Shown piece after piece: positions 5,364-25,079 of a DNA stretch of 38,684 bases. Location: NCBI GenBank assembly GCA_024694965.1, contig JAILJC010000228.1, forward strand, positions 1 to 38,684. Direction: 5' to 3'. This DNA comes from Lachnospiraceae bacterium. GTDB taxonomy: Bacteria > Bacillota > Clostridia > Lachnospirales > Lachnospiraceae. Within the stretch, counting starts at the first letter, position 1. Each line of letters begins with the position of its first letter. The notes under the pieces were generated by a model. It searched no databases. It saw only the letters and a program-made list of their open reading frames with translations, and was not told the DNA's origin. The position numbers and the translations under genes were made by a program.

Positions 5364-5436
5364 TGCGCGATCAGGGGCTCGAACCCTGGACACCCTGATT
5401 AAGAGTCAGGTGCTCTACCAACTGAGCTAATCGCGC
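5364..5436 (-). tRNA. tRNA-Lys (anticodon CTT)
   Basis: Read on the minus strand, a full cloverleaf folds: acceptor GCGCGAT/ATCGCGC, D-stem GCTC/GAGC, anticodon stem CCTGA/TCAGG around loop CTCTTAA (anticodon CTT), variable GTGTC, and T-stem CAGGG/CCCTG around TTCGAGC. The gene is 73 bases including discriminator A. CCA is not encoded. A run of eight T follows the 3' end directly on the minus strand (plus-strand A run 5356-5363) and probably ends transcription. It decodes AAG. Confidence 0.96.
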
Positions 5437-6301: not shown

Positions 6302-7154
6302 GCTTGTGAGCGCAGGTAATACAATAGATGTGATCAAAAAGCATGACTTTACCTTCCGTAAGCGCTTTGGTCAGAACTTCCTTATTGATGAACATGTGCT
6401 TGAAAAGATAGTACAGGCTGCGGATATCACAGGGGATGACTATGTAATAGAGATAGGTCCCGGGATCGGCTCCATGACGCAGTATCTGTGCGAGAAAGCA
6501 GGGAAGGTAACGGCCGTTGAGATAGACAGGGATCTTATACCCATCCTTAATGAGACGCTTGGCGATTATGATAACGTAACTGTCATAAACGATGACATAC
6601 TTAAGGTTGATATAGCCGGACTTATAGAGAAGGAAAATAAAGGAAAGCCCGCGAAGGTTGTAGCAAACCTGCCGTACTATATAACAACGCCGATAGTAAT
6701 GACTCTGCTTGAGGACCACCTTCCCATAAGCAGCATTACGGTAATGGTGCAGAAGGAGGTAGCGCAGCGCATGCAGGCGGAGCCGGGAAGCAAGGACTAC
6801 GGAGCATTGAGCCTGGCTGTTAAGTATTATTCCGATCCGCATATAGTGGCAAATGTTCCTCCAAACTGTTTCATTCCAAGGCCCAAGGTGGGATCGGCAG
6901 TCATCAATCTTATTGTTTATGATGCGCCGGTCATTAATGTAAAAGATGAGAAGCTGATGTTTAAGCTTATCCGTGCGGCATTCAACCAGAGGAGAAAAAC
7001 ACTTGTCAACAGCATCTCGAATTCGGGTGATCTTGGCTTTTCAAAGCAGGAAATAACGGACGCTTTAAACGCCATGAACCTGCCCGAAACCATAAGGGGA
7101 GAAGCACTGAGTCCGGAGCAGTTTGCGGCCCTGTCGGACCGTCTGATTTTTTGA
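6294..7154 (+). CDS. rsmA: 16S rRNA (adenine(1518)-N(6)/adenine(1519)-N(6))-dimethyltransferase
   Basis: A 286-residue KsgA/RsmA protein. It dimethylates two adjacent adenosines in helix 45 of 16S rRNA using S-adenosylmethionine. Motifs: FRKRFGQNFLIDEHVLEKIV at the N-terminus, the SAM-binding VIEIGPGIGSMTQYL, acidic VEIDRDL, NDDILKVD, catalytic NLPYYITTPIV, and the C-terminal FNQRRKTLVNS. The ATG overlaps tatD. The last codons contain the -35 box of the downstream promoter. Confidence 0.97.
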   Translation: MNKLVSAGNTIDVIKKHDFTFRKRFGQNFLIDEHVLEKIVQAADITGDDYVIEIGPGIGSMTQYLCEKAGKVTAVEIDRDLIPILNETLGDYDNVTVINDDILKVDIAGLIEKENKGKPAKVVANLPYYITTPIVMTLLEDHLPISSITVMVQKEVAQRMQAEPGSKDYGALSLAVKYYSDPHIVANVPPNCFIPRPKVGSAVINLIVYDAPVINVKDEKLMFKLIRAAFNQRRKTLVNSISNSGDLGFSKQEITDALNAMNLPETIRGEALSPEQFAALSDRLIF

Positions 7155-7179
7155 CAATGCACCATGTCTATGATAAACT
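7151..7179 (+). promoter_or_regulatory. Sigma-A promoter for the TPR/acidic-repeat gene
   Basis: A perfect -35 TTGACA overlaps the rsmA stop codon. After a 17-base spacer comes TAAACT (7174-7179). The predicted start near 7186 lies just before the palindrome at 7195-7247, so that palindrome would fall in the leader. Confidence 0.6.
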
Positions 7180-7194
7180 TAAGACCGAGTGTGC

Positions 7195-7247
7195 TCAACT
7201 ATTCAGCCACTTACCCGAAGGATTTTAAGCCTGTTATGAATAGTTGA
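7195..7247 (+). repeat. 11-bp perfect inverted repeat in the leader
   Basis: TCAACTATTCA (7195-7205) and its exact complement TGAATAGTTGA (7237-7247) are separated by 31 bases. It sits between the predicted transcript start and the ribosome site (GAGGTG, 7255-7260). No T run follows, so it does not look like a terminator. It could be an RNA stem controlling translation or stability, or a spaced operator. Confidence 0.6.
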
Positions 7248-7266
7248 TTTATATGAGGTGAAAACG

Positions 7267-10200
7267 TTGGATAAGTACGAATATCAGGTATGCGCCGATC
7301 AGATAAAGACGCTAATAAGTGAGCGAAGGTATGCGGAGGCTATGAACATAGCCGATACCATTGACTGGCGTAAGGTGAGGAGCGTTTCCATGCTCTGCAC
7401 CGTCAGTGAAGTATATAAGATCAACAAAAAGTACGAAGAAGCAAGGGATATACTGTTCCTTGCTTATGACAGATATCCAGGCGGCAGGACCATAGTTTAT
7501 GCACTTTGTGAGCTTGCCATAAAGCTTAACGATGTTCTTCAGGCCAAGGAACTGTATGAGGAATACGTAAGGCTTGCGCCCGAAGATACGGGTAAGTATA
7601 TCCTGCTTTACAAGCTCTATGAGGCTCTTGATGTATCACTTGAAGAGCGCATAGAGGTATTGGAGGAGTTCAAGAAAAGGGACTACAGGGAAAGGTGGGC
7701 CTATGAGCTTGCATACCTGTATCATAAGACAGGTCAGGAGACTCGTTGCGTTCAGGAATGTGACGAGCTTATTTTATGGTTTGGTGACGGCAGGTATGTT
7801 AAGCAGGCAATGGACCTTAAGATGCAGCACACCAGGCTTTCAAAGGAGCAGCAGCTTAAGTATGAAGGCCGTCAGGAACCCATCAATGACAAATTCATGA
7901 ATATGGGGCAGACCCCCGTACAGCAGATATATGATACGGATCCGCAGGCAGGTAATCCCCAGCAGATACCGATGCAGCCTCCCGTTCAGCAGCCGTCCAT
8001 GCAGCAGCCCTACGATGCAAGGTATAACGGTTCATATATGGGACAGCCCATGCAGGATCCACAGCAGATGTACATGCAGGGTACATCGGGCGAAGCCGGT
8101 CCTTTAGGACAGGGACAGGATATGCGGATCACTGCCGAGCCGGTGACTTCATCCGGACAGCGTACCGCACAGATGCTTAACACTTCCGAGATCGATTCGA
8201 TCCAGGTACAGCCCGTCAATGTGGGAATGTATAATACGATGGATCTTCAGAACGGCCTGTCGGAGAATATCAAGAAGTTCTTCGAACGCGAAAATGCCCG
8301 TGCGATCGATGAAGGCGTCACACTGAGCGCCGATCCCGAATCTTATGACCGCTTATATGAAAATAATACGATGGATATCCCTGGATCTACCGATGAGATC
8401 GGCATGAGTGAAGAAAACGGCCCGGTGATAACCGTAAGTGAGATAACACCGTCGGAGAACGAACTGGATGATGTTCCGGGCAACGAGGAAGACGTCCAGA
8501 TCACGACGTTTATGCCTGACAAAGAGGAAATCTACAAGTCCGGCAGCTATAGCTATAACACCGAACCCGAAAGCAGCGCAGGCCTGTATATGGCTGCACA
8601 GGAATTGAGTCCGTCCGAGGAGGATGAGGCGGTAATGCAGGCCGTTATGGGACATGACGGGCATGAAATGCCGTCGGATGAAGGCGTGACACCGGTAACG
8701 GGCGAAGTAGCAGCACCTGCGGGGACAATGTCTGCAGGATCAGTACCCGCAGAAGAGGAGCCTGCAGAAGAAGAGCCTGTTGAAGAAGAGACTGCGGCAG
8801 CCGGTACCGGAGCGGCAGACCCGGATGAAGAAGACGACGAGATATACAGGGATGACCTTGACAGTATATATAGGGAATGGGAAGACAAGAAGCGGGAGAG
8901 CGAAGAGAGGCGCATACAGGAGGCAAAAGAGAAGTCACTTGTATGGACCAGCGATATCATGGCTCAGCTTAAGGGCGTCCTTCCCGAGATAGATGATATC
9001 GCAAGGCCTACACCTCCGAGAGTTGTAACCGGAGAGGAAACGGGTGAAGTTCCGGAGATCGAACCCGTATTCAAACCATACCGTACAGCAAGTGCGGGAA
9101 GTGAAGTAAAACCCGCATCGATATCCATACCTCTTCCGGTTGATGATATAGAACAGGCTGCTGAAGCAGGACCGGATTTTGCAAGGCAGCCCGAAGAAAA
9201 ACCGGCGGAAGAACCTGCAGAAGAACCGGTTTATGAGGAAGCTGAACAGGAACTTACAGAAGATACGGAAGAGTCATATGAGGAGGCTGAGCAGGAAGCT
9301 TCTGAAGATGAGGAGTTACCTGAAGAGGAACCTGCAGAAGAATCGGTAGAAGAAGAACAGCCTGAGGAGGAGCCGGTAGAAGAAGAGCTGCCTCAGGAGG
9401 AAGAGCCTGCTGAAGATGAGGAGTTACCTGAAGAAGAACCTGCAGAAGAATCGGTAGAAGAGGAACAGCCTGCAGAAGAACCTATAGAAGAAGAACAGCC
9501 TGAGGAGGAGCCTGTAGAAGAGGAAGAGATACCTGAAGAGGAGCCTGCGGAAGAAGAGCAGTCCGAGGAAGAACCGGCGGAAGAAGAACAGCCCGAAGAG
9601 GAACCTGCAGAAGAGGAAGAGCAGCCTGAGGAGGAGCCCGTAGAAGAGGAAGAGCAGCCCAAAGAGGAACCTGCGGAAGAAAAGCAGCCCGAAGAAGAGC
9701 CCAAGCCGGTGAAGCCAAGAGCGTTTACGCCCTGGAGGGAAGTACCCGACGAAGAGCCGGAACAGGAATCCGCGGATGAGAAAACGGCGGAGGATGAGGC
9801 TGACCGGGGATCCGAAGTAAAGGATGCGGAAGAAGCCGCAACGGAAGAAGCCGCAACGGAAGAAGCGGAAGTTGATTACGGCAATATGGAGATAAGCTAT
9901 GATCCGCATGCAGATATGGGCTTTGATCCGGAAAAGATAGATGTATCGGTCGCAGTGACCAAGGGTGAATTTGACTACTTAAACAACACCGATCCCGGAT
10001 CGGGTAACGATATTTATTTCCGTGAGATAATGAATATCGAGGATTCCGAGGAGGAAGTGTTCGGAGATGAAAAGGCGGGACTTAAGAAGGATGCTTCCGA
10101 AGAGGAGCTGACTTATTCGGAGGATGAAGAGGCCGCCAGAAAGGCAGCATTTGAGGTTACATCCGAGCTTCCCGAATATCCTTATGAAACCCTTGAGGAT

Positions 10201-11160
10201 TACGGCGAGGTTGAAGAGATCGAAGTCATCGAGCAGCCTGAAGGACTCGACGGCATTATGAAGACCAATGACCTTCCGCTTGATGATATAGCAAGGGCCA
10301 ATTATGAGGCCGGGATCGAGCCCGAGGACGACGAAAACGACGAACCGAAAGAAACGTCGAAGAAAAAACATCCAAGCTATATGAAACTCGAAAAGGCTCC
10401 TGTCAGCAAGCGTGATTTTGATAAGGAGGAGCAGCTTGTATTCGGAAGGTTTGAAGGTATCGAGTGGCTGAAGGCTCAGATCGTCAATTCAATAGACAAT
10501 ATTGATATGGATCCTTCCAGGGGTAACGTGCTTGTCATGGGTACCGAAGCGACCGGAAGGCGCTCGATAGCGATAGATGTAGTTAAGGTAATGCAGTCTC
10601 TCGAAGACGGATTTAAAGGAAAGGTTGCCAAGATATCCGGTGAGGCGCTTAATAAAAAGGACATCCCCCTTACCATAAAGAAGTTAAGGCACGGAGCGCT
10701 TATTATTGAGAATTCGGAAGGACTTACCCCTTCATCGGCGCGTATAGTTGCGGAAGCCCTGGAGCTTGAAACAGAGCCGGTGCTTGTCGTGATGGAAGGT
10801 GAGACCACGGGAGTTACGAAGCTCATAAATGCTTCAAAGGATATATTCGACAGGGTATTCAATTCAAGGATCGAGCTTCAGGATTTCACTACCGACGATC
10901 TTGTTGCATACGGCAAGGGTTACGCCCGTGAGAAGGAATATGCTATAGACGAGATGGGAGTACTTGCACTGTACAGGCGTATCGGTGACATGCAGACGCT
11001 TGACCATATCGTGACGCTCGAGGAAGTCAGGGAGATAGTCGATAATGCGATCAAGCATGTTGACAAGAAGAATATGTCCCATTTTGTGGACGTATTGCTT
11101 GCCAAGAGATATGACGACGAGGACTACATCATATTACGAGAGAAGGATTTCATTGTATAA
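7267..11160 (+). CDS. Large TPR, acidic Glu/Pro-repeat and AAA-like protein
   Basis: A 1297-residue protein that I do not recognise as a named family. Residues about 1-190 are helical and TPR-like (YEEARDILFLAYDRYP, QAKELYEEYVRLAPED, ERIEVLEEFKKRD). About 200-285 is Gln/Pro/Met-rich. About 480-820 is very acidic, dominated by EEEP/EEQPEEEP repeats at 640-815. The last 240 residues look like a decayed AAA+ domain: FGRFEGIEWLKAQIVN, VLVMGTEATGRRSIA at about 1090 where a Walker A would be but with Arg for Lys, LIIENSEG as a Walker-B-like strand, and an arginine-bearing FDRVFNSRIEL. It has no signal peptide or membrane segment. TTG at 7267 is preferred because GAGGTG lies six bases upstream; GTG at 7258 falls inside that ribosome site. 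A role as a cytoplasmic scaffold is only a guess. Confidence 0.75.
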   Translation: MDKYEYQVCADQIKTLISERRYAEAMNIADTIDWRKVRSVSMLCTVSEVYKINKKYEEARDILFLAYDRYPGGRTIVYALCELAIKLNDVLQAKELYEEYVRLAPEDTGKYILLYKLYEALDVSLEERIEVLEEFKKRDYRERWAYELAYLYHKTGQETRCVQECDELILWFGDGRYVKQAMDLKMQHTRLSKEQQLKYEGRQEPINDKFMNMGQTPVQQIYDTDPQAGNPQQIPMQPPVQQPSMQQPYDARYNGSYMGQPMQDPQQMYMQGTSGEAGPLGQGQDMRITAEPVTSSGQRTAQMLNTSEIDSIQVQPVNVGMYNTMDLQNGLSENIKKFFERENARAIDEGVTLSADPESYDRLYENNTMDIPGSTDEIGMSEENGPVITVSEITPSENELDDVPGNEEDVQITTFMPDKEEIYKSGSYSYNTEPESSAGLYMAAQELSPSEEDEAVMQAVMGHDGHEMPSDEGVTPVTGEVAAPAGTMSAGSVPAEEEPAEEEPVEEETAAAGTGAADPDEEDDEIYRDDLDSIYREWEDKKRESEERRIQEAKEKSLVWTSDIMAQLKGVLPEIDDIARPTPPRVVTGEETGEVPEIEPVFKPYRTASAGSEVKPASISIPLPVDDIEQAAEAGPDFARQPEEKPAEEPAEEPVYEEAEQELTEDTEESYEEAEQEASEDEELPEEEPAEESVEEEQPEEEPVEEELPQEEEPAEDEELPEEEPAEESVEEEQPAEEPIEEEQPEEEPVEEEEIPEEEPAEEEQSEEEPAEEEQPEEEPAEEEEQPEEEPVEEEEQPKEEPAEEKQPEEEPKPVKPRAFTPWREVPDEEPEQESADEKTAEDEADRGSEVKDAEEAATEEAATEEAEVDYGNMEISYDPHADMGFDPEKIDVSVAVTKGEFDYLNNTDPGSGNDIYFREIMNIEDSEEEVFGDEKAGLKKDASEEELTYSEDEEAARKAAFEVTSELPEYPYETLEDYGEVEEIEVIEQPEGLDGIMKTNDLPLDDIARANYEAGIEPEDDENDEPKETSKKKHPSYMKLEKAPVSKRDFDKEEQLVFGRFEGIEWLKAQIVNSIDNIDMDPSRGNVLVMGTEATGRRSIAIDVVKVMQSLEDGFKGKVAKISGEALNKKDIPLTIKKLRHGALIIENSEGLTPSSARIVAEALELETEPVLVVMEGETTGVTKLINASKDIFDRVFNSRIELQDFTTDDLVAYGKGYAREKEYAIDEMGVLALYRRIGDMQTLDHIVTLEEVREIVDNAIKHVDKKNMSHFVDVLLAKRYDDEDYIILREKDFIV
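9184..9708 (+). repeat. Degenerate in-frame Glu/Pro codon repeats
   Basis: Many imperfect copies of a unit encoding roughly EEEPAEEEQP, built from GAAGAG/CCTGCAG/GAGGAG blocks. Copies near 9310-9345 and 9415-9455 are almost identical. Such arrays change copy number easily. They also create long, spurious Ser/Leu-rich open frames on the opposite strand. Confidence 0.85.
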
Positions 11161-11188: not shown

Positions 11189-13102
11189 ATGGCAAATGAA
11201 CAGGATTTTTCACCGTTTATTTCCGATATGGACAAGTATCTGTTCGGCTCGGGAACGCACTATGACATTTATAAGAAATTAGGTGCGCATTTAGCCGAGA
11301 AGGACGGAGAAAAGGGAGTGTATTTTGCCGTATGGGCACCCGAAGCCGGGGGAGTATCCGTAGTCGGTGATTTTAACGACTGGAACGAAGGTGCTTCGCC
11401 GATGGTAAAGATCGGGGACATAGGCATTTATGAGCTGTTTATCCCCGGACTTACAACGGGTACGCTGTATAAGTACCTTATCACCACGGCTGCGGGAGAT
11501 AAGCTTTACAAGGCCGATCCTTATGCAAATTATGCGGAGCTGCGTCCGGGTACGGCATCCATAGTAACGGATATACAAAGCTTCAAATGGTCTGATTCTT
11601 CATGGCTTAAAAAGAGGGATGAGCGGAATGTCCAGGAGATCCCGATGGCTATATACGAATGCCATATCGGCTCATGGATGAGGCATCCGGGACGTGATGA
11701 CGAAGGCTTTTACACGTACAGGCAGTTCGCGGACCGTATAGTCGATTATCTCGTGGACATGCACTATACCCATATAGAGCTTATCGGAATAGCCGAGCAT
11801 CCGTTTGACGGATCGTGGGGCTATCAGGTGACCGGGTATTATGCTCCCACTTCAAGATACGGAACGCCTGATGACTTCATGTATATGATCAACAAGCTCC
11901 ATAAGAATAATATCGGAGTTATCCTCGACTGGGTTCCTGCGCACTTCCCCAAGGATGCGCACGGACTTGCCAATTTTGACGGAAGCTGTCTGTATGAGTA
12001 TGCGGATCCCAAAAAGGGTGAGCATCCCGACTGGGGCACGAAGATATTTGATTACGGCAGGAATGAAGTAAAGAATTTCCTTATTGCAAATGCGATTTTC
12101 TGGATAAACGAGTTCCATGTCGACGGATTAAGGGTCGATGCGGTGGCATCCATGCTCTACCTTGATTACGGCAAGAAGGACGGGCAGTGGATCGCAAATA
12201 AATACGGAAGCAATGAGAACCTTGAGGCTATAGAGTTTTTCAAGCATCTTAATTCGCTCATAAGCGGGCGGTATCCCGGAGTTATGATGATAGCGGAAGA
12301 ATCAACCGCATGGCCGAAGATAACGGCAAAACCCGAGGATGACGGACTTGGCTTTACATTCAAATGGAACATGGGCTGGATGCATGATTTCTGCGATTAC
12401 ATGAAGCTTGACCCGATATTCAGGAGGGACAATCATCATAAGATGACCTTTGCGATGAGCTATAACGATGCGGAGAATTATATCCTGGTACTCTCGCATG
12501 ACGAGGTAGTACATCTTAAGTGTTCCATGCTAAACAAGATGCCGGGCTACTACATCGATAAGTTTGCAAACCTCAGGGTAGGATATACATTCATGCTTGG
12601 GCATGCCGGAAAGAAGCTTCTGTTCATGGGTCAGGAGTTTGCCCAGGACAGTGAATGGAACGAGGATAAGGAGCTTGACTGGGGACTTCTTTCTGATCCG
12701 CTGCATGCGGGGATGCAGGCCTATGTCCGTGAGCTGCTTAAGATATACACCAAGTATCCGGCAATGTATGAGCAGGACAGGGGCTTTGCGGGATTTGAAT
12801 GGATCAACGCAAACGATACATACAAGAGCATCTACAGCTTTTACAGAAAGGGTAAGAACGACAAGAAGAACAGGCTGCTGTTCGTAATGAACTTCACACC
12901 CATATCAAGGGATGATTACCGTGTGGGTGTTCCCGAGAAGAAAAAATACAAACTGCTGCTTGACAGTAACGAGGAAAGGTTCGGAGGCAACGGCATGGTA
13001 AGGGAAACAACCTATCAGGCCGAGGAGGTAGAATGGGACGGACAGCCTTATTCGGTATCATATCCTCTGGCGCCTTACGGAGCGGCGATATTCCTGTTCT
13101 AA
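11189..13102 (+). CDS. glgB: 1,4-alpha-glucan branching enzyme
   Basis: A 637-residue glycogen branching enzyme, typical of shorter Firmicute GlgB proteins. It cuts an alpha-1,4 glucan chain and rejoins it as an alpha-1,6 branch. An N-terminal CBM48 domain (GVYFAVWAPEAGGVSVVGDF) is followed by a GH13 barrel. Signatures: IGSWMRHPGR, DWVPAHFPKDAHGLANFDGS, FHVDGLRVDAVASMLYLDYG with nucleophile Asp317, MMIAEESTAWP with acid/base Glu370, VLSHDEVVH with Asp438, and LLFMGQEFAQDSEWNE. GGGAGG precedes the ATG. It follows the large repeat protein by 28 bases and may be co-transcribed with it; no other glycogen gene is nearby. Confidence 0.96.
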   Translation: MANEQDFSPFISDMDKYLFGSGTHYDIYKKLGAHLAEKDGEKGVYFAVWAPEAGGVSVVGDFNDWNEGASPMVKIGDIGIYELFIPGLTTGTLYKYLITTAAGDKLYKADPYANYAELRPGTASIVTDIQSFKWSDSSWLKKRDERNVQEIPMAIYECHIGSWMRHPGRDDEGFYTYRQFADRIVDYLVDMHYTHIELIGIAEHPFDGSWGYQVTGYYAPTSRYGTPDDFMYMINKLHKNNIGVILDWVPAHFPKDAHGLANFDGSCLYEYADPKKGEHPDWGTKIFDYGRNEVKNFLIANAIFWINEFHVDGLRVDAVASMLYLDYGKKDGQWIANKYGSNENLEAIEFFKHLNSLISGRYPGVMMIAEESTAWPKITAKPEDDGLGFTFKWNMGWMHDFCDYMKLDPIFRRDNHHKMTFAMSYNDAENYILVLSHDEVVHLKCSMLNKMPGYYIDKFANLRVGYTFMLGHAGKKLLFMGQEFAQDSEWNEDKELDWGLLSDPLHAGMQAYVRELLKIYTKYPAMYEQDRGFAGFEWINANDTYKSIYSFYRKGKNDKKNRLLFVMNFTPISRDDYRVGVPEKKKYKLLLDSNEERFGGNGMVRETTYQAEEVEWDGQPYSVSYPLAPYGAAIFLF

Positions 13103-13231: not shown

Positions 13232-13268
13232 AAATATCAGCTAAGAAAACATTCACGTGGAGATGACT

Positions 13269-16200
13269 ATGAAGATAGAAAACAGTTTACACCACGATCG
13301 GAATGTTGACATGGAGAAAATTACATACGGTAACTCCTATCAGAAAGGTACGGCAAGGATAGCCGACCAGGTGGGAGGATTTACATTAGACATTTCTGGC
13401 ACAGTTACGGATAACGCTGCTTACGGAATGGGAGAGCTTAAGTCTGCCGATGAAGTAATGCAGGATGCGGGGCATAAGGATATCGCCTTACAGAGAAACT
13501 ACATGGCAGTAATGTCTAATTCTATGTCAGCAGGAGATTACGCCAAATTACAGGAAGAAGGAATATCCGCTACGGATTCCGACATTGAAACGCACGTTAC
13601 GTCGCTTGATAAGATGAAAGCGAAGCTTGCACAGTCGGGAACGATAATAGCCGGATATAACGATGATCTGACGAACGATCAGATATCCGCTATTGCCGGC
13701 GGTGATATTGCAGCCGAGCAGTTGAGGGAAGTGTTCAGCAAAAATGACCTTCCGGTAAATGAGGAAAACGTTAAAGGCGTATCGGATGCCATGTTAAAGG
13801 CAGCAGGCATCACTTCATTATCGGATGATGTCAAAAAATATATGGTTATAAACGGACTCGAACCGACCATTGCAAACCTGTATAAAGCCGAGTACAGTGC
13901 GGGTACGGGTAACGGCAGGCAGGCAAGGGGCTATTACATGGATTCGACGGACGGTTATTATGCAAAGAAGGCGGACGTGTTTGATTTGGAGCAGATCCGC
14001 TCACAGGTAGAAGGCATAATAGACCGGGCGGGACTTCCCGTAAACGATGAGACTATGGCCGAGGCCGAATGGATAATAAAAAGCGGACTCCCGATAACGG
14101 AGAAGGCAGTAAGCATGCTTGACCGCTTAAACAACCTTGAGCTTCCGCTCTCAGGAGAAGACATTATCAATATCTCTGCCATAGCGATAAACGACGGCAG
14201 GACGCCTGTAAACGGAAGCATAGATAAGGCAGAACCGGATCATTTAACGGCCGTAAGGATACAGGATGAAGTAAACGCGATAACAGATGAAGCCGTAGAC
14301 AGGGTAGTAACATCAGGTAAGGAATTAAATATAAAGAACCTGTATGAAGAATCAACAACCCCTCTTTCAAAGCAGGAAGGGGGACAGGATAAAGCCGTTA
14401 CTTTGGATAACGCAGACAGCCTGACTGCAATGAGGCAGCTTGAGGAAACAAGGCTTATGATGAGCGTTGAAGCAAACCTTAAGCTTATAAAGCAGGGTAT
14501 ATCGATAGACTTAGAGCCCTTAAGCAGGCTGGTGGATGAACTTAAGGAAGCGGAAAGAGCTTATTACGAGCCGTTCCTTTTAAACTCCGATGAGAGAAGT
14601 TCGGACGGATCTGTAAAGATACTTGACGATAAGATAGACCTATATAAGCAGACGACGGATGTATTCACAAAACTTCGTACCGTGCCCGCCGAGATACTCG
14701 GAAGGGTAAATACGGGATCGGATGACTTTACCGCAAGGAACTTATCAGAGCAGGGAGAAGCATTAAGGAATTCCTATGCAAAGGCAGGCAGGTCATATGA
14801 AACGCTTATGACGGCGCCGAGGGCCGATCTTGGAGACAGCATCCGCAAGGCATTCGGTAACGTGGATGAAATACTTAAGGATAATGGTTTTGAGTTAAAC
14901 GATATAAACCGGAAAGCGGTAAGGATACTCGGGTATTCGGAAATCGAGATAAATCCCGAGACGATAAGCAGGGTAAGGGAAGCCGACAGGGCAGTGGAAC
15001 GTGTAATGGAGCTTATGACTCCCGCAAAGACACTGGAGCTTATCCGCTCAGGTGAAAACCCGATGGATACAAACATATATGCCCTGCAGCAGCAGCTTGA
15101 AGTATCACCCGATACGGAAAAATCCGAAAGGTACAGCCGATTCTTAAGAAAACTCGAAGAGAAGAACGAGATAAGCGAGCGTGAAAAATCAGCCTTCATC
15201 GGAGTATACAGGCTGATGCGGCAGATAGAGAAGAGCGACGGTAAGCTTATAGGAAACGTTTTATCAAGCGGAGCCGAGCCTACGCTTCGAAACCTGCTTT
15301 CCGCTTCAAGGAGCAACAGGGCTAAGGGAATGGACGTATCCGTTAATGATGATTTTGGCGGATTAAGCGCCCTTAACCAAAGAGGAATCTCGATCTCGGG
15401 TCAGATAGATTCAGGCTTTGCCGGAAGGAACAGGCAGGAAAGAGACACAAACTATCTTACAAGCCTCTCAGGGGAAGCGTTAGATAAGCTGGATCCGGAG
15501 GGGATGCTCAAGTCAGGGATCGATTTTGATAAACCGCTTGAAGATTTTGCATCCGGTATTATAAACGGATATGATAAGGAAGAATCAATAAAAGAACAGT
15601 TAACGCAGGACATGCGTGCAGTCAATGACGCAAAGGCTGTTGATGATAAAGTCATAGAAATGCTTAAGGACTTTAAACAGCCGGTAACGGTTAACAATCT
15701 CCTTGCCGCAAATGCACTTATGATGAACAGGGGCTCTGCACATAAAGCCCTGATGAATGAAGCCGATAAGGCCGACGGATCAAGAGGAGAAGCATTAAAG
15801 GAAGCGGCCCGTAAGCTTACGGATGAATTCACAAGCCGGGAAAGCGCGGATATAAGCTATAAAGAGTTTACCGAAGAGGCGTTAAAAACAGTGACGGAAG
15901 CCGTTGACAATGCGGTAACGGATATAGATGTAAGGGCACTTAAGCTTCTTCATAAGGAGTTAAGCGTTGCGGGAAGTCTTTCGAGACAGCAGAATTATGA
16001 AGTTCCCGTAAATATAGACGGTGAATGGACATCGATAAACTTAAGGCTTGTAAGCAGTTCCGAGGAAGAGGGAAGCGTTATAGCCACAATGGATACCGAA
16101 AAATACGGTAAGGTGGCGGCAAAGTTCTTAATGACCGGTAAGGAATGCAGGGGCTATATAACAAGTGACAGGCAGGACGGAACGGATGCGTTAAAAGCAC

Positions 16201-16385
16201 TTAAGGATGAACTCACGGAGCTTATTTCAAAGGACGGCCGCAGCGTTAAGGAACTTGATTTTGTAAGGAGCGATAAGCTTGACCTTAACGGTTTTGCAAG
16301 GGAAGAAGGAGAAGGAGCGGCAAATGCCGATTCGGCCGACCTATATGAAACGGCAAAGGCGTTTATAAGTATAATAAACAGGTAG
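13269..16385 (+). CDS. Large DUF6240-like protein upstream of flagellin
   Basis: A 1038-residue, mostly helical protein without signal peptide or membrane segment. I connect it tentatively with the DUF6240 family seen beside Lachnospiraceae motility genes. It contains several copies of a short module: DLPVNEENV (about 160), GLPVNDETM (about 255), GLPITEKAV (about 272), ELPLSGEDI (about 291), then looser FELNDINRKAV and IEINPETI. The segment at about 905-1000 (VPVNIDGEWTSINLRLV, then YGKVAAKFLMTG) recalls the C-terminal domain of the hook-length protein FliK, which is only a suggestion. ATG 13269 is chosen because GTGGAG ends six bases upstream; GTG 13257 is part of that ribosome site. The flagellin ATG follows after 12 bases. 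Confidence 0.65.
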   Translation: MKIENSLHHDRNVDMEKITYGNSYQKGTARIADQVGGFTLDISGTVTDNAAYGMGELKSADEVMQDAGHKDIALQRNYMAVMSNSMSAGDYAKLQEEGISATDSDIETHVTSLDKMKAKLAQSGTIIAGYNDDLTNDQISAIAGGDIAAEQLREVFSKNDLPVNEENVKGVSDAMLKAAGITSLSDDVKKYMVINGLEPTIANLYKAEYSAGTGNGRQARGYYMDSTDGYYAKKADVFDLEQIRSQVEGIIDRAGLPVNDETMAEAEWIIKSGLPITEKAVSMLDRLNNLELPLSGEDIINISAIAINDGRTPVNGSIDKAEPDHLTAVRIQDEVNAITDEAVDRVVTSGKELNIKNLYEESTTPLSKQEGGQDKAVTLDNADSLTAMRQLEETRLMMSVEANLKLIKQGISIDLEPLSRLVDELKEAERAYYEPFLLNSDERSSDGSVKILDDKIDLYKQTTDVFTKLRTVPAEILGRVNTGSDDFTARNLSEQGEALRNSYAKAGRSYETLMTAPRADLGDSIRKAFGNVDEILKDNGFELNDINRKAVRILGYSEIEINPETISRVREADRAVERVMELMTPAKTLELIRSGENPMDTNIYALQQQLEVSPDTEKSERYSRFLRKLEEKNEISEREKSAFIGVYRLMRQIEKSDGKLIGNVLSSGAEPTLRNLLSASRSNRAKGMDVSVNDDFGGLSALNQRGISISGQIDSGFAGRNRQERDTNYLTSLSGEALDKLDPEGMLKSGIDFDKPLEDFASGIINGYDKEESIKEQLTQDMRAVNDAKAVDDKVIEMLKDFKQPVTVNNLLAANALMMNRGSAHKALMNEADKADGSRGEALKEAARKLTDEFTSRESADISYKEFTEEALKTVTEAVDNAVTDIDVRALKLLHKELSVAGSLSRQQNYEVPVNIDGEWTSINLRLVSSSEEEGSVIATMDTEKYGKVAAKFLMTGKECRGYITSDRQDGTDALKALKDELTELISKDGRSVKELDFVRSDKLDLNGFAREEGEGAANADSADLYETAKAFISIINR

Positions 16386-16397
16386 GAGGAACGGGAT

Positions 16398-17513
16398 ATG
16401 AAGGTTAATTCAAACATTCAGGCAATGATAGCGGGGAACGTGCTTAAGAACAACGAGATAAGGCAGTCGGATTCGACAAGGAAGCTCTCAAGCGGCTACA
16501 AGATCAACAAGGCAAAGGATAATCCGGCGGGCATGGCGATCTCTAACAGGATGCGTGCCCAGATACAGAGCCTTAACAGGGCAAACCAGAATGCTTCAAA
16601 TGCGGTAAACGTGATCGAAACGGCAGAAGGTGCTTTGGGTGAGATACAGGCAATGATCCAGAGAATGAGCGAGCTCTCTGTAAAGGCCGCAAACGGGACC
16701 AATACCACCGAAGACCGCGTAGCCATTCAGGCGGAGATCAAGCAGCTTACCTCAGAGATACAGAGGGTTGCAAAAGATACCGAGTACAACGGCCAGAACC
16801 TTCTTGGAGGTGAGCAGGCACTTAAGGGATATGTTACCGATCCCGCTGCTTTGGGACTCAGTGTTGTGGATTATGATCCCGATTTTCCTATAGGAAAGAA
16901 ATATGATATTGAGTTTTCAAAGACGACGGATGCGGACGGTAATACGGTCATTGACAAGACCAGTGTGGTATTTAAAGTTGACGACGTTGCCACGACAGGA
17001 AACATCGAAGTTAACGGAGATAAGATCACCGTTACAAATGCGGACGGTGCAAAGCTTACTCTTAAAGCCGGAGCTACACTTCCCGATAGTGTTTCGACAG
17101 GGCTTGAATTAAACGGTATCGGCGGAATGACTATACAGGTAGGTTCGTCGGAAGGACAGGAGATCAATATTGTTATACCCGAAATTTCCCTTGACAACCT
17201 GGGTATAGAAAAAATAGATGTAAGGACGGAAGAAGGAGCACAGAAGGCTCTTGAGCAGACCAAATACGCTTTGTCCTTCATATCATCGGTAAGGTCAAGG
17301 TTAGGAGCATATGAGAACAGGTTTGAAAATACGATATCAAACCTTGATGTTGCGGAAGAGAACCTTACAAAGTCTTATTCGACCATAAAGGATGTAGATA
17401 TGGCTGATGAGATGGTAGAGTACACCACACTCCAGGTTCTCGTACAGGCTGGCACGTCGATGCTGTCACAGGCAAACGAGCAGCCGCAGCAGGCTCTTCA
17501 GTTACTTCAGTAA
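16398..17513 (+). CDS. fliC: Flagellin
   Basis: A 371-residue flagellin. The conserved N-terminal D0/D1 region runs to about residue 140 (TRKLSSGYKINKAKDNPAGMAIS, NVIETAEGALGEIQAMIQRM, DTEYNGQNLLGG). The C-terminal D1/D0 starts near 285 and ends AGTSMLSQANEQPQQALQLLQ. The central 150 residues are variable, surface-exposed beta-rich sequence. It is exported unfolded by the flagellar type III apparatus and forms the filament. The N-terminus (KVNSNIQAMIAGNVLKNNEIRQ) departs from the common KVNHNI form. GTAGGAGG precedes the ATG. It is in an operon with the DUF6240-like gene and fliS. Confidence 0.96.
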   Translation: MKVNSNIQAMIAGNVLKNNEIRQSDSTRKLSSGYKINKAKDNPAGMAISNRMRAQIQSLNRANQNASNAVNVIETAEGALGEIQAMIQRMSELSVKAANGTNTTEDRVAIQAEIKQLTSEIQRVAKDTEYNGQNLLGGEQALKGYVTDPAALGLSVVDYDPDFPIGKKYDIEFSKTTDADGNTVIDKTSVVFKVDDVATTGNIEVNGDKITVTNADGAKLTLKAGATLPDSVSTGLELNGIGGMTIQVGSSEGQEINIVIPEISLDNLGIEKIDVRTEEGAQKALEQTKYALSFISSVRSRLGAYENRFENTISNLDVAEENLTKSYSTIKDVDMADEMVEYTTLQVLVQAGTSMLSQANEQPQQALQLLQ

Positions 17514-17531
17514 AACCGGGAGGAAGAGGTA

Positions 17532-18005
17532 ATGACCAAAGAACAGATACAGGAGTACACTTTAAGGATCACCCGTGCCAACAGGAGCGAGCTCATAGTC
17601 ATAGTTTATGACCTTGCAATCGGCTATATCGAGTCTGCGATCAAGGCTTACGACAGCCATGATATGGAGGCCTTCAGCGCAAACAGCAGATATGCGAACA
17701 AATGCGTGGGAGATCTTCTTGAGGCACTTGATTTTAATTATGAGCCGGCATATCCGTTAATGAGGATATACGTTTTTGTAAGCAAACAGATATCCCTGGC
17801 GCCTATAAAGAAGGATAAGGAAACACTTGAGGTTGCTCTTAGGCTGCTTAAAAAGCTGCGCAAATCCTTTGAGGATATCGCCGCTCAGGATGACTCTGCT
17901 CCGCTTATGGAGAATACCCAGGATGTGTATGCGGGACTCACATACGGACGGGGCAGCCTTAACGAAAATGTCGGAGGTTCTCAGAACAGAGGCTTCACGG
18001 TCTGA
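17532..18005 (+). CDS. fliS: FliS-like flagellin export chaperone
   Basis: A 157-residue helical protein, slightly longer than usual FliS (about 125-135). FliS binds the C-terminal helix of flagellin and prevents early polymerisation. The pattern ITRANRSELIVIVYDLAIGYIESAI, then SRYANKCVGDLLEALDFNYE, fits the four-helix FliS fold. The last 35 residues (SLNENVGGSQNRGFTV) look like a disordered tail. It sits 18 bases after flagellin with GGGAGG before its ATG, and a terminator follows, so it closes the motility operon. Confidence 0.85.
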   Translation: MTKEQIQEYTLRITRANRSELIVIVYDLAIGYIESAIKAYDSHDMEAFSANSRYANKCVGDLLEALDFNYEPAYPLMRIYVFVSKQISLAPIKKDKETLEVALRLLKKLRKSFEDIAAQDDSAPLMENTQDVYAGLTYGRGSLNENVGGSQNRGFTV

Positions 18006-18297: not shown

Positions 18298-19350
18298 TTG
18301 AATATAAGGAGTATGGTCATCTGCGACCGTGACAGGGATTACGGCGGCAGGCTGACGGAATATATAAGGCGCAGCGAATGCGGCTATGATGTGATGCTGT
18401 ATACGGATCCGGTCAGGTTCCTTAATGAATGGCAGCATAAAAATATTTCACTGCTTCTGATGGAGGAGGAATTTCTTTCAGAAGACCGGGCCATGGACAC
18501 AGGCACGTACGAGGAGGAAAACATATCGGCAGATGTCCGGTTTATATTAACGGGTGACCGCAATAAGGCCGGGTGGGAAGGTGTCATTTACAAGTATCAG
18601 TCCGCGGCCGGCATAATAGCCTGCATAGGCGGTGAGCTTAATGATTCGATCAGGATTATAAATGATAATCAAAGGAGTGAAGGTGCGGGGATGATCGGAG
18701 TGTATTCACCGGTATCCCATGTGCTTAAGACGACATATGCTATGACTTTGGGAAGGATACTTTCAAAGACACAGAATGTTCTGTACGTAAACCTTGAAGG
18801 GTACAACGGGCTTGCAAGGATGCTTGATATCGGCAGCGATCTGAGTCTGCAGGATATGATCTATGAATATTCCTTAAGTCCGGGTTCCCTTAGCGGACTG
18901 CTTACAAGGTATGTTACGACAGTGGACGGACTTGATATGCTGCGGCCGGCCCGCTGCCCCGATGAACTTAAGGAGGTTGAACCGTCAATGTGGCTTTCGT
19001 TTTTGAGCGATCCGGCCGTCAGGGGAAAATACGACAGCGTGATCCTTGACCTGTCCGATGATGTCCGGGGAACGATAGACCTTATGAATGTATGCAGTAT
19101 CGTTTACATGCCCGTAAGGAGGGATGAGATTGCGGTTGCCAAGTTAAAGGATTTCGATGATTCTCTGTTAAGGTATCCCGGGGGTGAAGGGATAATGAAC
19201 AGGATAGTGAGGCTTAAGTTTCCATATTTTGAAGATGCAGGTACACCGCTTAACAGTCATGGAAACGGCATGCTTAAAAGGTATATACGGCAGGAAATAC
19301 TGAAGGATGACAGCACGGGAGAATATGAACAGGAACCGGAATGTGCTTGA
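18298..19350 (+). CDS. cpaE: CpaE/TadZ-like pilus assembly protein
   Basis: A 350-residue protein from TTG 18298. The first part is a pseudo-receiver (MVICDRDRDYGGRL, SLLLMEEEF, RFILTGD). From about residue 120 it has a ParA/MinD-like fold (IGVYSPVSHVLKTTYAMTLGR, VLYVNLEGYNGLARML, YDSVILDLSDDV). The P-loop is degenerate: the first signature lysine is missing, although Lys-Thr-Thr remains, as in some TadZ proteins. TadZ/CpaE helps place the Tad apparatus at the pole. The upstream in-frame TTG at 18166 has no ribosome site and would cover the leader stems; 18298 has GGAGGTT. ATG 18313 has AAGGAG too close. Confidence 0.8.
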   Translation: MNIRSMVICDRDRDYGGRLTEYIRRSECGYDVMLYTDPVRFLNEWQHKNISLLLMEEEFLSEDRAMDTGTYEEENISADVRFILTGDRNKAGWEGVIYKYQSAAGIIACIGGELNDSIRIINDNQRSEGAGMIGVYSPVSHVLKTTYAMTLGRILSKTQNVLYVNLEGYNGLARMLDIGSDLSLQDMIYEYSLSPGSLSGLLTRYVTTVDGLDMLRPARCPDELKEVEPSMWLSFLSDPAVRGKYDSVILDLSDDVRGTIDLMNVCSIVYMPVRRDEIAVAKLKDFDDSLLRYPGGEGIMNRIVRLKFPYFEDAGTPLNSHGNGMLKRYIRQEILKDDSTGEYEQEPECA

Positions 19351-20554
19351 AAAGAGCAGGGAGATAAGGGATGAAGTAAGGCATGACCTGGAAGGCCGGT
19401 TTGGTATTGCCGATGATGAGGTCCTTTCCCTGATAGACGAAAGGATAAGGCTTAAAAACAGACAGCATGCAATGCAGCTTTCCGAAAAACTTGCGATAAG
19501 AAGGGAAGTGTTCAATTCGATCCGCAGGCTGGATGTACTGCAGGAGCTTATTGATGATCCTCAGATCACCGAGATCATGGTGAACGGCATGCATTCCATA
19601 TTTATCGAGAAGGACGGAAGCCTTTTTGATACCGGGAGGAAATTTGATTCAAAAGAGAGGCTCATGGATATCATCCAGCAGATAGTTGCCGGAGCAAACA
19701 GGACGGTAAATGCAGCTTCGCCGATAGTGGATGCAAGGCTGCCTGACGGATCGAGGGTTAATGTTGTTTTAGGCCCGGTTGCGCTTAACGGACCGATACT
19801 AACGATAAGGCGGTTTCCCGGGGAACCGATGAACGGAAAGCGGCTGGTGGAAACAGGGTCTGTAAGCAGTGAGGCTCTTGATTTTCTGAAAATGCTCGTT
19901 AGAGCAAAGTACAACATACTGATAAGCGGGGGCACGGGAGCGGGAAAAACTACCATGTTAAGTGTGTTAAGCGGTGCGATCCCGCAGGATGAAAGGATCA
20001 TCACGATCGAGGACAGTGCCGAGCTTGTCATACAGGGGATAGATAACCTGGTCTCACTCGAGGCAAGGAATGCCAACATAAAGGGGTGCGACCCGATAAG
20101 CATAAGGGACCTTATTAAAACGGCGCTCAGGATGCGGCCTGACCGGATAATAGTCGGCGAGGTAAGGGGTGCCGAGGCCATAGATATGCTCCAGGCTATG
20201 AATGTGGGGCAGGACGGCTCCATGTCAACGATACATGCAAACAGCGCGGGAGATGCTTTATCAAGGCTTGAAACCATGATGCTCCTTCATACGGACATAC
20301 CCATATATGCATTAAGACGTCAGATGGCTTCCGGCATCGATTTTATCGTTCATCTCGGCAGGCTGAGGGATGGCAGCAGGCGGGTCCTTGAGATAAGGGA
20401 GATAACGGGATGCTCCGATAATGAGATACTGTCCCGGAACATATTCAGGTTTGAGGAAACGGGCGAAGCTAAAGGAAAGGTTCAGGGAAGTCTTGTAAGG
20501 GATATGGAAATGGAAAACACGGATAAGCTTAAAAGGGCAGGGATAAAGTTATAA
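19325..20554 (+). CDS. cpaF: CpaF/TadA-type secretion ATPase
   Basis: A 409-residue hexameric type II/IV secretion ATPase that powers Tad pilus assembly. Signatures: ITEIMVNGMHSIFIEKDG in the N-terminal domain, Walker A ISGGTGAGKTTML, IITIEDSAELVI (Asp box), RMRPDRIIVGEVRGAEAIDML (Walker B), and GQDGSMSTIHANSAGDAL (His box). All are intact, so it should be active. Its start overlaps cpaE by 26 bases; ATG 19325 has GGGAG three bases away, while ATG 19307 in the same frame is an alternative with a poorer ribosome site. The next gene starts immediately after its stop. Confidence 0.95.
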   Translation: MNRNRNVLEKSREIRDEVRHDLEGRFGIADDEVLSLIDERIRLKNRQHAMQLSEKLAIRREVFNSIRRLDVLQELIDDPQITEIMVNGMHSIFIEKDGSLFDTGRKFDSKERLMDIIQQIVAGANRTVNAASPIVDARLPDGSRVNVVLGPVALNGPILTIRRFPGEPMNGKRLVETGSVSSEALDFLKMLVRAKYNILISGGTGAGKTTMLSVLSGAIPQDERIITIEDSAELVIQGIDNLVSLEARNANIKGCDPISIRDLIKTALRMRPDRIIVGEVRGAEAIDMLQAMNVGQDGSMSTIHANSAGDALSRLETMMLLHTDIPIYALRRQMASGIDFIVHLGRLRDGSRRVLEIREITGCSDNEILSRNIFRFEETGEAKGKVQGSLVRDMEMENTDKLKRAGIKL

Positions 20555-21292
20555 ATGGACTACGATAAATACAGGATGAGCAAGACAGAAGTTATAAAGT
20601 ATACGCTCATTTATGCTGGTGCCGCTGCACTCATATCATATACCTTCTATGATTCGCTTTATGTGATCGCAGCGTTCATTCCTGCAATGATCTTTTACTT
20701 TAAGCAGGTAAAGGCGGAGCTTAAGAAAGCAAGGAGGGAACGGCTTACAAGGCAGTTTACGGATATGATAGACGGAGTGTCGACGGCGATGCAGGCAGGA
20801 TATTCGGCCGAGAATGCATTTCACGAATCATACATGGACATGCTTAAGCTGTACGGGAAGGAAAGCCTTATCGTATCGGAGCTTGAATCTATTTTTTCAA
20901 AGCTTGATACGGGAATGGCACTCGAACTCATACTTAAGGATTTTGCACAAAGGGCGGATACGGAAGATATAACCGATTTTGAAGAGATATTCATGATAGC
21001 CAAACTAAACGGCGGAAACATGAGCGACATCATAAAAAACACGGTAAGGATCATGAAGGATAAAGAAGATACGGAAAAGGAGATACGTGTGATACTTTCA
21101 GGCAGGAGATATGAACAGAGGATAATGTGCATCATTCCCTTTGCTATCATACTTTATCTTAAGGTGTCGGGCGTCAGTTATATCTCGATACTTTATCATA
21201 ACCCGACAGGAGCGGCGGTCATGACAGTATGTCTGATCATCATGGCAGGTGCATATTATCTGTCGCGGAAGTTTATTGATATAAAGGTTTAG
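20555..21292 (+). CDS. tadB: TadB-like type II secretion F-domain protein
   Basis: A 245-residue inner-membrane platform protein. Two membrane segments lie near the N-terminus (about 15-50), then a cytoplasmic F domain (RLTRQFTDMIDGVSTAMQAGYSAENAF, DFEEIFMIAKLNGGNMSDII), and two membrane segments at the C-terminus (IMCIIPFAIILYLKVS, GAAVMTVCLIIMAGAYYL). TadB/TadC proteins link the ATPase to pilin assembly. The ATG directly abuts the cpaF stop. It is shorter than most TadB proteins, as is common in Gram-positive Tad loci. Confidence 0.88.
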   Translation: MDYDKYRMSKTEVIKYTLIYAGAAALISYTFYDSLYVIAAFIPAMIFYFKQVKAELKKARRERLTRQFTDMIDGVSTAMQAGYSAENAFHESYMDMLKLYGKESLIVSELESIFSKLDTGMALELILKDFAQRADTEDITDFEEIFMIAKLNGGNMSDIIKNTVRIMKDKEDTEKEIRVILSGRRYEQRIMCIIPFAIILYLKVSGVSYISILYHNPTGAAVMTVCLIIMAGAYYLSRKFIDIKV

Positions 21293-21293
21293 C

Positions 21294-22712
21294 ATGATGA
21301 TCATTATATATGGTTTACTGACACTTACGGGAGCAGGATTCCTTATTGTTTTTAACAGGCTGCCGTATGAAAAACAGCTTAAGTTGTTCAGGCGGATCGG
21401 TAACGACAGGACGATACAGGATATAAAGAAAACCGATCCTGCGGGAAATGCATTTAAAAGAAGCATTGACCATTGCAGAAAGAAGATAAAGATAGCGGTA
21501 CTGATACTTACGACAGGTTCAATGCTTGCCTGTATATACGAGCTGAATATGATGGAAACGCATGAACTCATTGACGGAAACATGATAGAGAGGGAAGGCT
21601 ATACGGGCAACAGCCGGAAGGTAAGGCTTAAGGTCCATGACGGTTCCGGTGAGGAACAGGATGTGATCGATGTTACTGTAAGTAAACGAAAATATGACAC
21701 GGATATGCTCACGGATATGGCTGCCAAAGCAGAAGAACAGCTTATGCTTGAAATCCTGGGCGCCAATGATTCTCTCGACAATATAAGGTATGACATGTCG
21801 CTGCCGGAATCACTGCCGGATTATCCCTTCAGTATATCCTGGAGGATAGACGATCCGCTGCTTTTAAGCAGCAGGGGCGTGATAAACAGGGACAGATACG
21901 ATGAAAATGATATCGAAGCGGTGAATGAAGGCATCCTTACAGGGATACATGCCGAGCTTAAATATGAGGATTATGTCTGCGGCATTGATCTTGCGGCCAG
22001 GGTTTTTCCGGTAAAGACAAGGGAGCTTACCTTCGGAGAGTATTTAAGTGAACTAATATTTAAAGCGGATAAGGAAACGAGGGAGGATAAGGAGCTTGTG
22101 CTGCCGGGATCTTTAGAGGGCAGAAAGGTGATATATGAAGAATCATCCGACTTACGGAGTACGGCAATATTATTCCTTGCTGTGGCAGCCGCAGCGCTTA
22201 TGTACTACCGGGAAGATAAGGAGTTAAGCGATAAGGTTAAGAAACGTGACAAGGAGCTTATGCGGGATTATCCGGAGCTTGTAAACAAGTTTGCCCTGTT
22301 TTATTCCGCGGGTCTGCCCACAAGGGGAATATGGCACAAGCTTTGCAGGGATTACAGGGAGTCGCTTGAGCACGGGGGAAAGAAGAAATATCTGTATGAG
22401 GAAATGCTCCTGTGTGAAGGAAGGATGAATGAAGGAACGGGCGAGGTCGCGGCGTATGAAACGTTTGCATCGGCCTGCGGACTGTTTAAGTACAGGCAGT
22501 TTATAAGCCTTATCTGTCAGGCGGTAGGAAAGGGAAGGGCAGACATGATCCTTAAGCTTGAGGATGAAGCATGTGAGGCGTTCACGGAAAGGAAGCGGCA
22601 TGCCAGGGAACTTGGCGAGGAAGCGGGAACAAGGCTGTTGTTCCCGATGATAATGATGCTTATGGTCGTACTGATAATAGTTACGATACCGGCGTTTATT
22701 TCATTCAGGTAA
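21294..22712 (+). CDS. tadC: TadC-like F-domain protein with a large extracytoplasmic insertion
   Basis: A 472-residue membrane protein. Membrane segments lie at about 1-22, 66-84, 288-305 and 449-470. Between the second and third is an approximately 200-residue polar region (about 85-287) predicted outside the membrane, with beta-rich stretches such as KVRLKVHDGSGEEQDVIDVT and YPFSISWRIDDPLLLS. The C-terminal part is the F domain (MRDYPELVNKFALFYSAGLP, ETFASACGLFKYRQFISLI, EEAGTRLLFPMIMMLMVVL). Ordinary TadC proteins of about 300 residues lack such an insertion. The start is one base after the tadB stop. Confidence 0.82.
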   Translation: MMIIIYGLLTLTGAGFLIVFNRLPYEKQLKLFRRIGNDRTIQDIKKTDPAGNAFKRSIDHCRKKIKIAVLILTTGSMLACIYELNMMETHELIDGNMIEREGYTGNSRKVRLKVHDGSGEEQDVIDVTVSKRKYDTDMLTDMAAKAEEQLMLEILGANDSLDNIRYDMSLPESLPDYPFSISWRIDDPLLLSSRGVINRDRYDENDIEAVNEGILTGIHAELKYEDYVCGIDLAARVFPVKTRELTFGEYLSELIFKADKETREDKELVLPGSLEGRKVIYEESSDLRSTAILFLAVAAAALMYYREDKELSDKVKKRDKELMRDYPELVNKFALFYSAGLPTRGIWHKLCRDYRESLEHGGKKKYLYEEMLLCEGRMNEGTGEVAAYETFASACGLFKYRQFISLICQAVGKGRADMILKLEDEACEAFTERKRHARELGEEAGTRLLFPMIMMLMVVLIIVTIPAFISFR

Positions 22713-22734
22713 TGAAGTTTAAAAAGGAGGATAT

Positions 22735-22929
22735 ATGACCGGAAACATATTTAGGGAAATAAGAAGGCTGACAAGGAGATTTGCGGGAGATGACAGGGGT
22801 ATCGGAGTGGTCGAGCTGATACTTATATTGGTCGTCCTCATCGGCTTGGTAGTGATATTCAGGGATCAGCTGACATCACTTATAAACGGTATCTTTGAAA
22901 GAATAGTAAATGATTCGCATGCGGTATAG
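22735..22929 (+). CDS. flp: Flp-type type IVb pilin
   Basis: A 64-residue prepilin. After a basic leader (REIRRLTRRFAGDDRG) comes the cleavage site Gly22|Ile23, with Glu at mature position +5 (IGVVEL) and a hydrophobic helix (ILILVVLIGLVVIF). The mature pilin would be about 42 residues. The usual Flp motif has Glu-Tyr; here it is Glu-Leu. An AAAAAGGAGG ribosome site, the strongest in the operon, fits a highly made structural subunit. It is probably processed by the prepilin peptidase at 25080. Confidence 0.93.
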   Translation: MTGNIFREIRRLTRRFAGDDRGIGVVELILILVVLIGLVVIFRDQLTSLINGIFERIVNDSHAV

Positions 22930-25067: not shown

Positions 25068-25079
25068 ATAAGGAGACAG

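Follow-up and report, generated by a model that had tools for sequence, protein, structure and literature searches.

The characterised members of the SpoVK/CbbX/EccA clade of AAA+ proteins are chaperones with a narrow, dedicated role, each serving one target or context, and the variable N-terminal domains of the clade, such as the tetratricopeptide repeats (TPRs) of EccA, may recruit the substrate (excerpts of Delerue et al., PMC10659427). The same excerpts describe SpoVK as an activator of MurG in sporulation and as an active ATPase in which Walker A, Walker B and the arginine finger are needed, and give the sensor-1 motif GY as a signature of the clade (PMC10659427). Degeneration of an AAA+ protein has been described in PcdA of Staphylococcus aureus division, a McrB-derived protein with an eroded P-loop and Walker B and a role in assembly, which keeps a weak NTPase activity required for its function (excerpts of PMC10602043). 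Here we analyzed a gene, designated X, in a 38,684-nucleotide contig of a Lachnospiraceae bacterium (JAILJC010000228.1, assembly GCA_024694965.1; this whole stretch is referred to as the window), the product of which is, as judged from sequence and structure models, a catalytically degenerate variant of this known AAA+ clade bearing TPRs and an acidic linker. A literature search of titles and abstract starts, its coverage leaving out most subscription journals, retrieved no description of such a protein. Gene X, its parts and the gene that follows it lie in the window as listed:

7267..11160, forward strand: gene X, encoding a TPR - acidic linker - degenerate AAA+ protein (1297 amino acids plus stop, TTG start)
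7267..7857, forward strand: N-terminal TPR domain, residues 1-197 (Pfam, AlphaFold2 (AF2), Foldseek)
7939..8136, forward strand: Gln/Pro-rich segment that opens the linker, residues 225-290 (66 residues, of which 15 are Gln and 10 Pro)
8197..8283, forward strand: linker island 1, residues 311-339, consensus YNTxNLQ.ELA (recurrence among linkers)
8851..8994, forward strand: linker island 2, residues 529-576, consensus EWE..K.e.E (recurrence among linkers)
9195..9702, forward strand: Glu/Pro array of tandem repeats, residues 643-812 (170 residues, of which 93 are Glu and 26 Pro)
10363..11157, forward strand: C-terminal degenerate AAA+ domain with its lead-in, residues 1033-1297 (AF2, PDB matches)
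10540..10566, forward strand: former Walker A, GTEATGRRS (against CbbX GKT, Lys to Arg and Thr to Arg)
10699..10722, forward strand: former Walker B, LIIENSEG (against CbbX FIDEA, Asp to Glu and Glu to Asn)
11189..13102, forward strand: glgB, 28 bp downstream of X

A first-pass annotation of the window, made from the sequence alone, had read the C-terminus of X as a decayed AAA+ module; profile and structure matches bear this out and place it with the CbbX/SpoVK type. The AF2 model of the C-domain (pLDDT 83.2, pTM 0.77; low confidence at residues 1-13 and ~237-252 of the modelled piece) has an AAA+ fold, and CbbX is its best PDB sequence match as well as its top-ranked structural match. The C-domain family profile also matches EccA1 (9lur, 5.6e-7), and at E <= 0.01 TIGR02881 (SpoVK) and TIGR03922 (EccA) match 47 and 40 of 50 X members, respectively. 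Since its profile matches both CbbX and EccA, the C-domain derives from this clade of dedicated chaperones; its fold by itself would not distinguish it from other AAA+ proteins, and the matches listed from a viral structure library were mostly general AAA+ proteins. Pfam and NCBIfam scans of X returned only weak TPR, AAA and DUF4866 matches. For DUF4866 (PF16160), E was 0.0074 in the window and 1.3e-4 in the best member, with 5 of 50 members at E <= 0.01, and a search of 21 genomes for this domain gave no matches, but its controls gave none either.

To follow the active site and the gene neighbourhood among relatives, we used 55 loci chosen for their similarity to the window (excluding L049, which duplicates L040), 40 further loci chosen for a missing glgB or low similarity, and 80 loci drawn at random from X-positive genomes; no two census rows are identical, but they are related to each other. 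In the alignment, GTEATGRR of the window stands against GNPGTGKT of CbbX and ALIIENSEG against VLFIDEAYY, so that the first-pass reading of the two motifs holds. Active-site residues were counted in 154 C-domains aligned with CbbX, with gapped rows left out per column; the placement of residues in highly divergent rows is uncertain. An intact GK[ST] P-loop was found in 57 of the 154 C-domains, and in 36 of 75 from the random draw. The Walker-B Asp (7/142) and the catalytic Glu (13/142) are rarer; GK[ST] and this Glu occur together in four rows, and GK[ST] with Asp-Glu in none of the 154. At sensor-1, Tyr was found in 0/142 and Gly in 26/142, while the sensor-2 Arg, for which the CbbX residue used is our own assignment, is present in 2/145. 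The CbbX arginine finger was likewise assigned by us, from the stated spacing; its column holds Arg in 13/143, with Asn four residues ahead in 59/142, and the window, which reads INASKDFDRVF in this region, lacks the combination of this Asn with an arginine finger. Of the motifs expected in the clade, X thus lacks Walker B Asp-Glu, sensor-1 GY and sensor-2 Arg, and the window also lacks Walker A GxxGxGK[ST]. In the profile alignment the X family also lacks two CbbX inserts of 7 (QYIGHTA) and 9 residues, which we take to be the substrate-facing pore loops. As the catalytic set is incomplete in every scorable C-domain, the active site is, on this alignment, degenerate family-wide, and the decay proposed from the window alone extends across the relatives examined.

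The loss of the P-loop follows phylogeny. On a quick 161-row tree of the N-domains alone, built without a mixture model and with no root inferred, P-loop state changes 10 times compared with a shuffled mean of 44 (minimum 37), and is therefore clade-structured, although the count gives no direction. There are 14 maximal clades in which it is lost throughout, and in the P-loop-less clade of the window GK[ST] is lost in 46 of 46 scorable loci.

Translation, composition and structure models recover the remaining architecture that had been described for the 1297-residue open reading frame (ORF), namely a TPR-like N-terminus, a Gln/Pro part and a Glu/Pro array ahead of the C-terminal module. Residues 1-197 are modelled with high confidence (mean pLDDT 95.8) as a helical TPR fold of tandem helix-turn-helix units; the Foldseek matches are TPR proteins, including MamA, and the Pfam TPR_19 match (E 3.8e-5) scores 24.4 bits, below the cut-off of 25. 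The N-domain is also present in 55 of 57 ORFs with a C-domain match, a count that includes the window itself and the duplicate locus L049, and both ORFs without it (L038, L087) are cut by contig ends; the two domains are thus paired beyond chance. Linkers of >50 residues between them are net acidic in all 146 cases (medians 31% Asp+Glu and 8.5% Lys+Arg; length 61-1150), and the Glu/Pro array of the window is a tandem repeat at the DNA level, with units of ~12, 30 and 33 bp among others. Islands 1 and 2 recur in 68 and 65 of the 146 linkers, respectively, compared with none of 146 shuffled linkers in either case. Both are more frequent where glgB is adjacent (island 1, 57/78 vs 11/62 non-adjacent linkers; island 2, 60/78 vs 5/62), and as candidate GlgB-specific docking peptides they gained no support from tree-independent pairs. 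The N- and C-domain matches lie in separate ORFs in four loci, adjacent in L134 (3642-9114, reverse strand), L127 (7393-11312, forward) and L117 (7785-10531, forward) and with one ORF between them in L129 (2550-8569, reverse), which suggests gene fission or a frameshift. Locus L102 (6131-13552, forward) has a frame of 2473 amino acids that opens with the N-domain and matches the C-domain only in part, over residues 521-632.

Both end domains of X are under purifying selection, according to nonsynonymous (dN) and synonymous (dS) substitution rates between the window and five close relatives; the ratios are rough, since many dS values are >1 or saturated. Four pairs with a finite dS put the N-domain at a dN/dS of 0.004-0.039, and three put the C-domain at 0.011-0.054; these low values indicate that each domain is maintained, and the C-terminal E.DF motif is invariant in 50 of 50 aligned rows. 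The linker is looser, with dN of 0.16-0.46 and dN/dS of 0.05-0.14 (three finite pairs).

The N-domain profile found X in 370 of 397 sampled Lachnospiraceae genomes, and in 304 of the 319 of good quality. With a single C-domain sequence as query, 336 of the 397 genomes gave a match at E <= 0.001, though other AAA+ proteins may account for the weakest of these. When a full-length relative was searched against 391 genomes of the class, strong matches were confined to Lachnospiraceae, and the matches outside the family (best E 8.8e-9) covered only the AAA part, the N-terminal part or the linker. Among 196 genomes of the class, the N-domain profile matched 5 of 6 Lachnospiraceae and 1 of ~190 others, for which part of the misses is listed; the sole outside match (E 1.1e-14, in G562) is a 1341-amino-acid frame with C-domain profile matches in scattered pieces only. 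Searching the window's own genome with the X protein (E <= 0.001) returned X itself as the sole match.

The ORF 28 bases downstream of X had been called glgB, and it is indeed GlgB, scoring 898.5 bits with NF003811 (cut-off 741); the short gap suggests that the two genes are co-transcribed. GlgB lies directly after X on the same strand in 50 of the 55 similarity-picked loci and within four genes in 52, with a gap of <=50 bases in 37 of these 52. The random draw of 80 gave GlgB directly after X in 34 loci, within three genes in 1 and not at all in 43, with contig ends in 2. On the tree, 8 changes of GlgB adjacency are counted, compared with a mean of 50.5 (minimum 43) after shuffling; a branch with SH-aLRT 87 has on one side the 95 tips among which the linkage occurs, and a branch with SH-aLRT 99 likewise sets apart the 47 tips of the window's P-loop-less clade. 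Within the glgB half, 79 of 95 loci have GlgB at +1, and 31 of 93 have KsgA at -1; in the P-loop-less clade GlgB takes the +1 position in 46 of the 47 loci. GlgB is therefore the best-kept neighbour in one half of the tree, and the link is real and lineage-bound. The linkage is also found in P-loop-bearing clades and hence, on this unrooted tree, probably arose before the window's clade lost its P-loop. The tie to glgB suggested in the first pass is thus borne out in part: on the tree it is conserved far beyond shuffled expectation, but it is missing from 43 of the 80 random loci, and X persists in genomes with no detected GH13 glgB, some of them with no detected glgA either.

We consider the chances about even that X is a maintained, family-wide adaptor or scaffold of Lachnospiraceae, descended from a chaperone of the SpoVK/CbbX/EccA clade that has been retired as an AAA+ motor, with GlgB as its client in the lineages of fixed linkage. 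Sequence and structure models suggest the adaptor or scaffold role, which is favoured because X has a recruiting part and an AAA+-shaped domain but no motor; gene order points, more tentatively, to GlgB as the client. The TPR domain would bind the client, the linker would be a spacer carrying extra docking peptides, and the C-domain would serve as a binding or oligomerising module that threads no substrate. Where X and glgB are fixed together, X would position or stabilise GlgB, the glycogen-branching enzyme, and would then descend from an enzyme-dedicated chaperone while no longer depending on nucleotide; for the other lineages a client other than GlgB would have to be assumed. Rather unlikely, in our estimate, is the fuller proposal of a pseudo-activase, that is, an enzyme-dedicated chaperone lineage that abandoned ATP hydrolysis, turned into a structural adaptor across Lachnospiraceae and, in many lineages, uses its TPR dock, acidic tether and linear motifs to organise the glycogen-branching enzyme.

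Several observations weigh against GlgB as the client or against the absence of a motor. GlgB is missing from 43 of the 80 random loci, although 14 of these have <2500 bases downstream of X. GlgB (TIGR01515, E <= 1e-100) was detected in 377 of 397 genomes, and 17 of the 20 without it have X. In one of the 17 (G006) a GlgB cut by a contig end sits beside X, so that 16 X-bearing genomes are left in which no GH13 GlgB was detected (the search did not extend to GH57 branching enzymes). Of these, 12 have glgA, and the four in which none was detected are 75, 86, 95 and 99% complete. GlgB is found, in turn, in 24 of the 27 genomes lacking an N-profile match, 7 of the 27 being inferred by exclusion. 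X without GlgB and GlgB without X both occur: X is not restricted to genomes with GlgB, nor does the presence of GlgB entail it, and a strict dependence of X on glgB is rejected on account of the 16 genomes. The analogy with PcdA, moreover, warns of possible residual activity in X (excerpts of PMC10602043).

The persistence of X without detected glgB or glgA would also be expected if X were a scaffold with a general housekeeping role and no relation to glycogen, its position ahead of glgB being ancestral and kept by a shared transcript, and the RecR, KsgA and transporter neighbours equally incidental. This is a possible, if tentative, alternative, in keeping with the near-universal presence of X in the sampled Lachnospiraceae and with neighbours that vary by clade: RecR is directly upstream of X in 11 of 80 random loci, and an ABC transporter ATPase cluster (annotated via one member) is at -1 in 10 loci. 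The much better retention of GlgB than of KsgA in the glgB half argues against it, although co-transcription alone could yield the same contrast. That X is instead a nucleotide switch, binding ATP or hydrolysing it weakly and changing its assembly state as PcdA does, seems improbable; the retention of GK[ST] in nearly half of the random C-domains and the PcdA precedent (excerpts of PMC10602043) speak for it, whereas the window's P-loop is without both Lys and Thr, its clade has lost GK[ST] wherever it could be scored, and sensor-1 Tyr and sensor-2 Arg are absent or nearly so throughout. A functionless C-domain remnant, with the TPR domain alone mattering, is very improbable: the repeated changes and all-lost clades of the P-loop and the 13 of 163 N-domain ORFs without a detected C-domain (some of them lying at a contig end or next to an ORF that carries the C-domain) would fit it, but the C-domain is held at low dN/dS and its E.DF motif is invariant. 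A mixed ring with an active SpoVK-type paralog was rejected as a general solution, TIGR02881 matching at E < 1e-40 in 11 of 36 genomes; the window's own genome is among the 11, and such a ring would be possible there.

TTG 7267 is the likelier start of X, since the alternative in-frame start, GTG at 7258, overlaps the Shine-Dalgarno-like GAGGTG (7255-7260) upstream of the TTG. One reverse frame of X was translated and is interrupted by many stops; reverse ORFs within X reach up to 161 amino acids. Two features precede the gene and one lies farther upstream:

7151..7179, forward strand: promoter-like TTGACA-17-TAAACT, at the end of ksgA
7195..7247, forward strand: leader inverted repeat of X, with 11-nt perfect arms at 7195-7205 and 7237-7247
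5364-5436, reverse strand: tRNA gene (Rfam RF00005)

With 13 promoter-like sites in the region compared with a shuffled mean of 10.6, the first of these is weak on its own. By eye, a similar site is seen in four of seven aligned relatives (L032, L033, L035 and L036), its second half only in L039, and it is unclear in L034 and L037. The 3' arm of the inverted repeat lies shortly upstream of the Shine-Dalgarno of X, and its arms co-vary by eye in L032 and L033. An Rfam scan of the window found nothing at gene X, and the one tRNA elsewhere.

KsgA lies directly downstream rather than upstream of X in L148, L150, L154, L156 and L165. A DHHA2 pyrophosphatase and a rhomboid protease each stand beside X in one locus (L115 and L129, respectively), and TatD is among the other annotated neighbours. 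After glgB, window positions 13257-18005 encode a DUF6240 protein whose tail weakly resembles FliK, followed by a flagellin and a FliS-like protein; the DUF6240 protein is again at +2, and the flagellin at +3, in 27 of the 55 loci each. T2SSE, T2SSF-like, DUF5702 and A24 prepilin peptidase genes follow at 19307-25556, in what is presumably a Tad/Flp-type pilus cluster.

A strongly selected branch without the catalytic set in 370 of 397 genomes of a gut-bacterial family would show that the SpoVK/CbbX/EccA clade can work motorless and, if GlgB is indeed a client, would offer a possible organiser for glycogen branching in Lachnospiraceae; the analysis also sets domain boundaries for a gene that is barely recognised by Pfam and NCBIfam. 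Of the described systems, CbbX, the red-type Rubisco activase, is closest to X in sequence and in structural rank, yet it has the two inserts, Walker-B Asp-Glu, sensor-1 GY and sensor-2 Arg that X is missing. SpoVK belongs to the same AAA+ clade but is an active ATPase, as described in the excerpts of PMC10659427, whereas X is without the full catalytic set and has TPRs. The type VII secretion AAA+ ATPase EccA (TIGR03922) shares with X both N-terminal TPRs (excerpts of PMC10659427) and a CbbX-like AAA+ domain; X differs in its long acidic linker and lost catalytic residues, and no type VII secretion genes are among its annotated neighbours, no search aimed at such genes having been made. PcdA resembles X in having an AAA+ domain with an eroded P-loop and Walker B, but it comes from another AAA+ clade, carries other N-terminal domains and has kept a weak NTPase activity (excerpts of PMC10602043).

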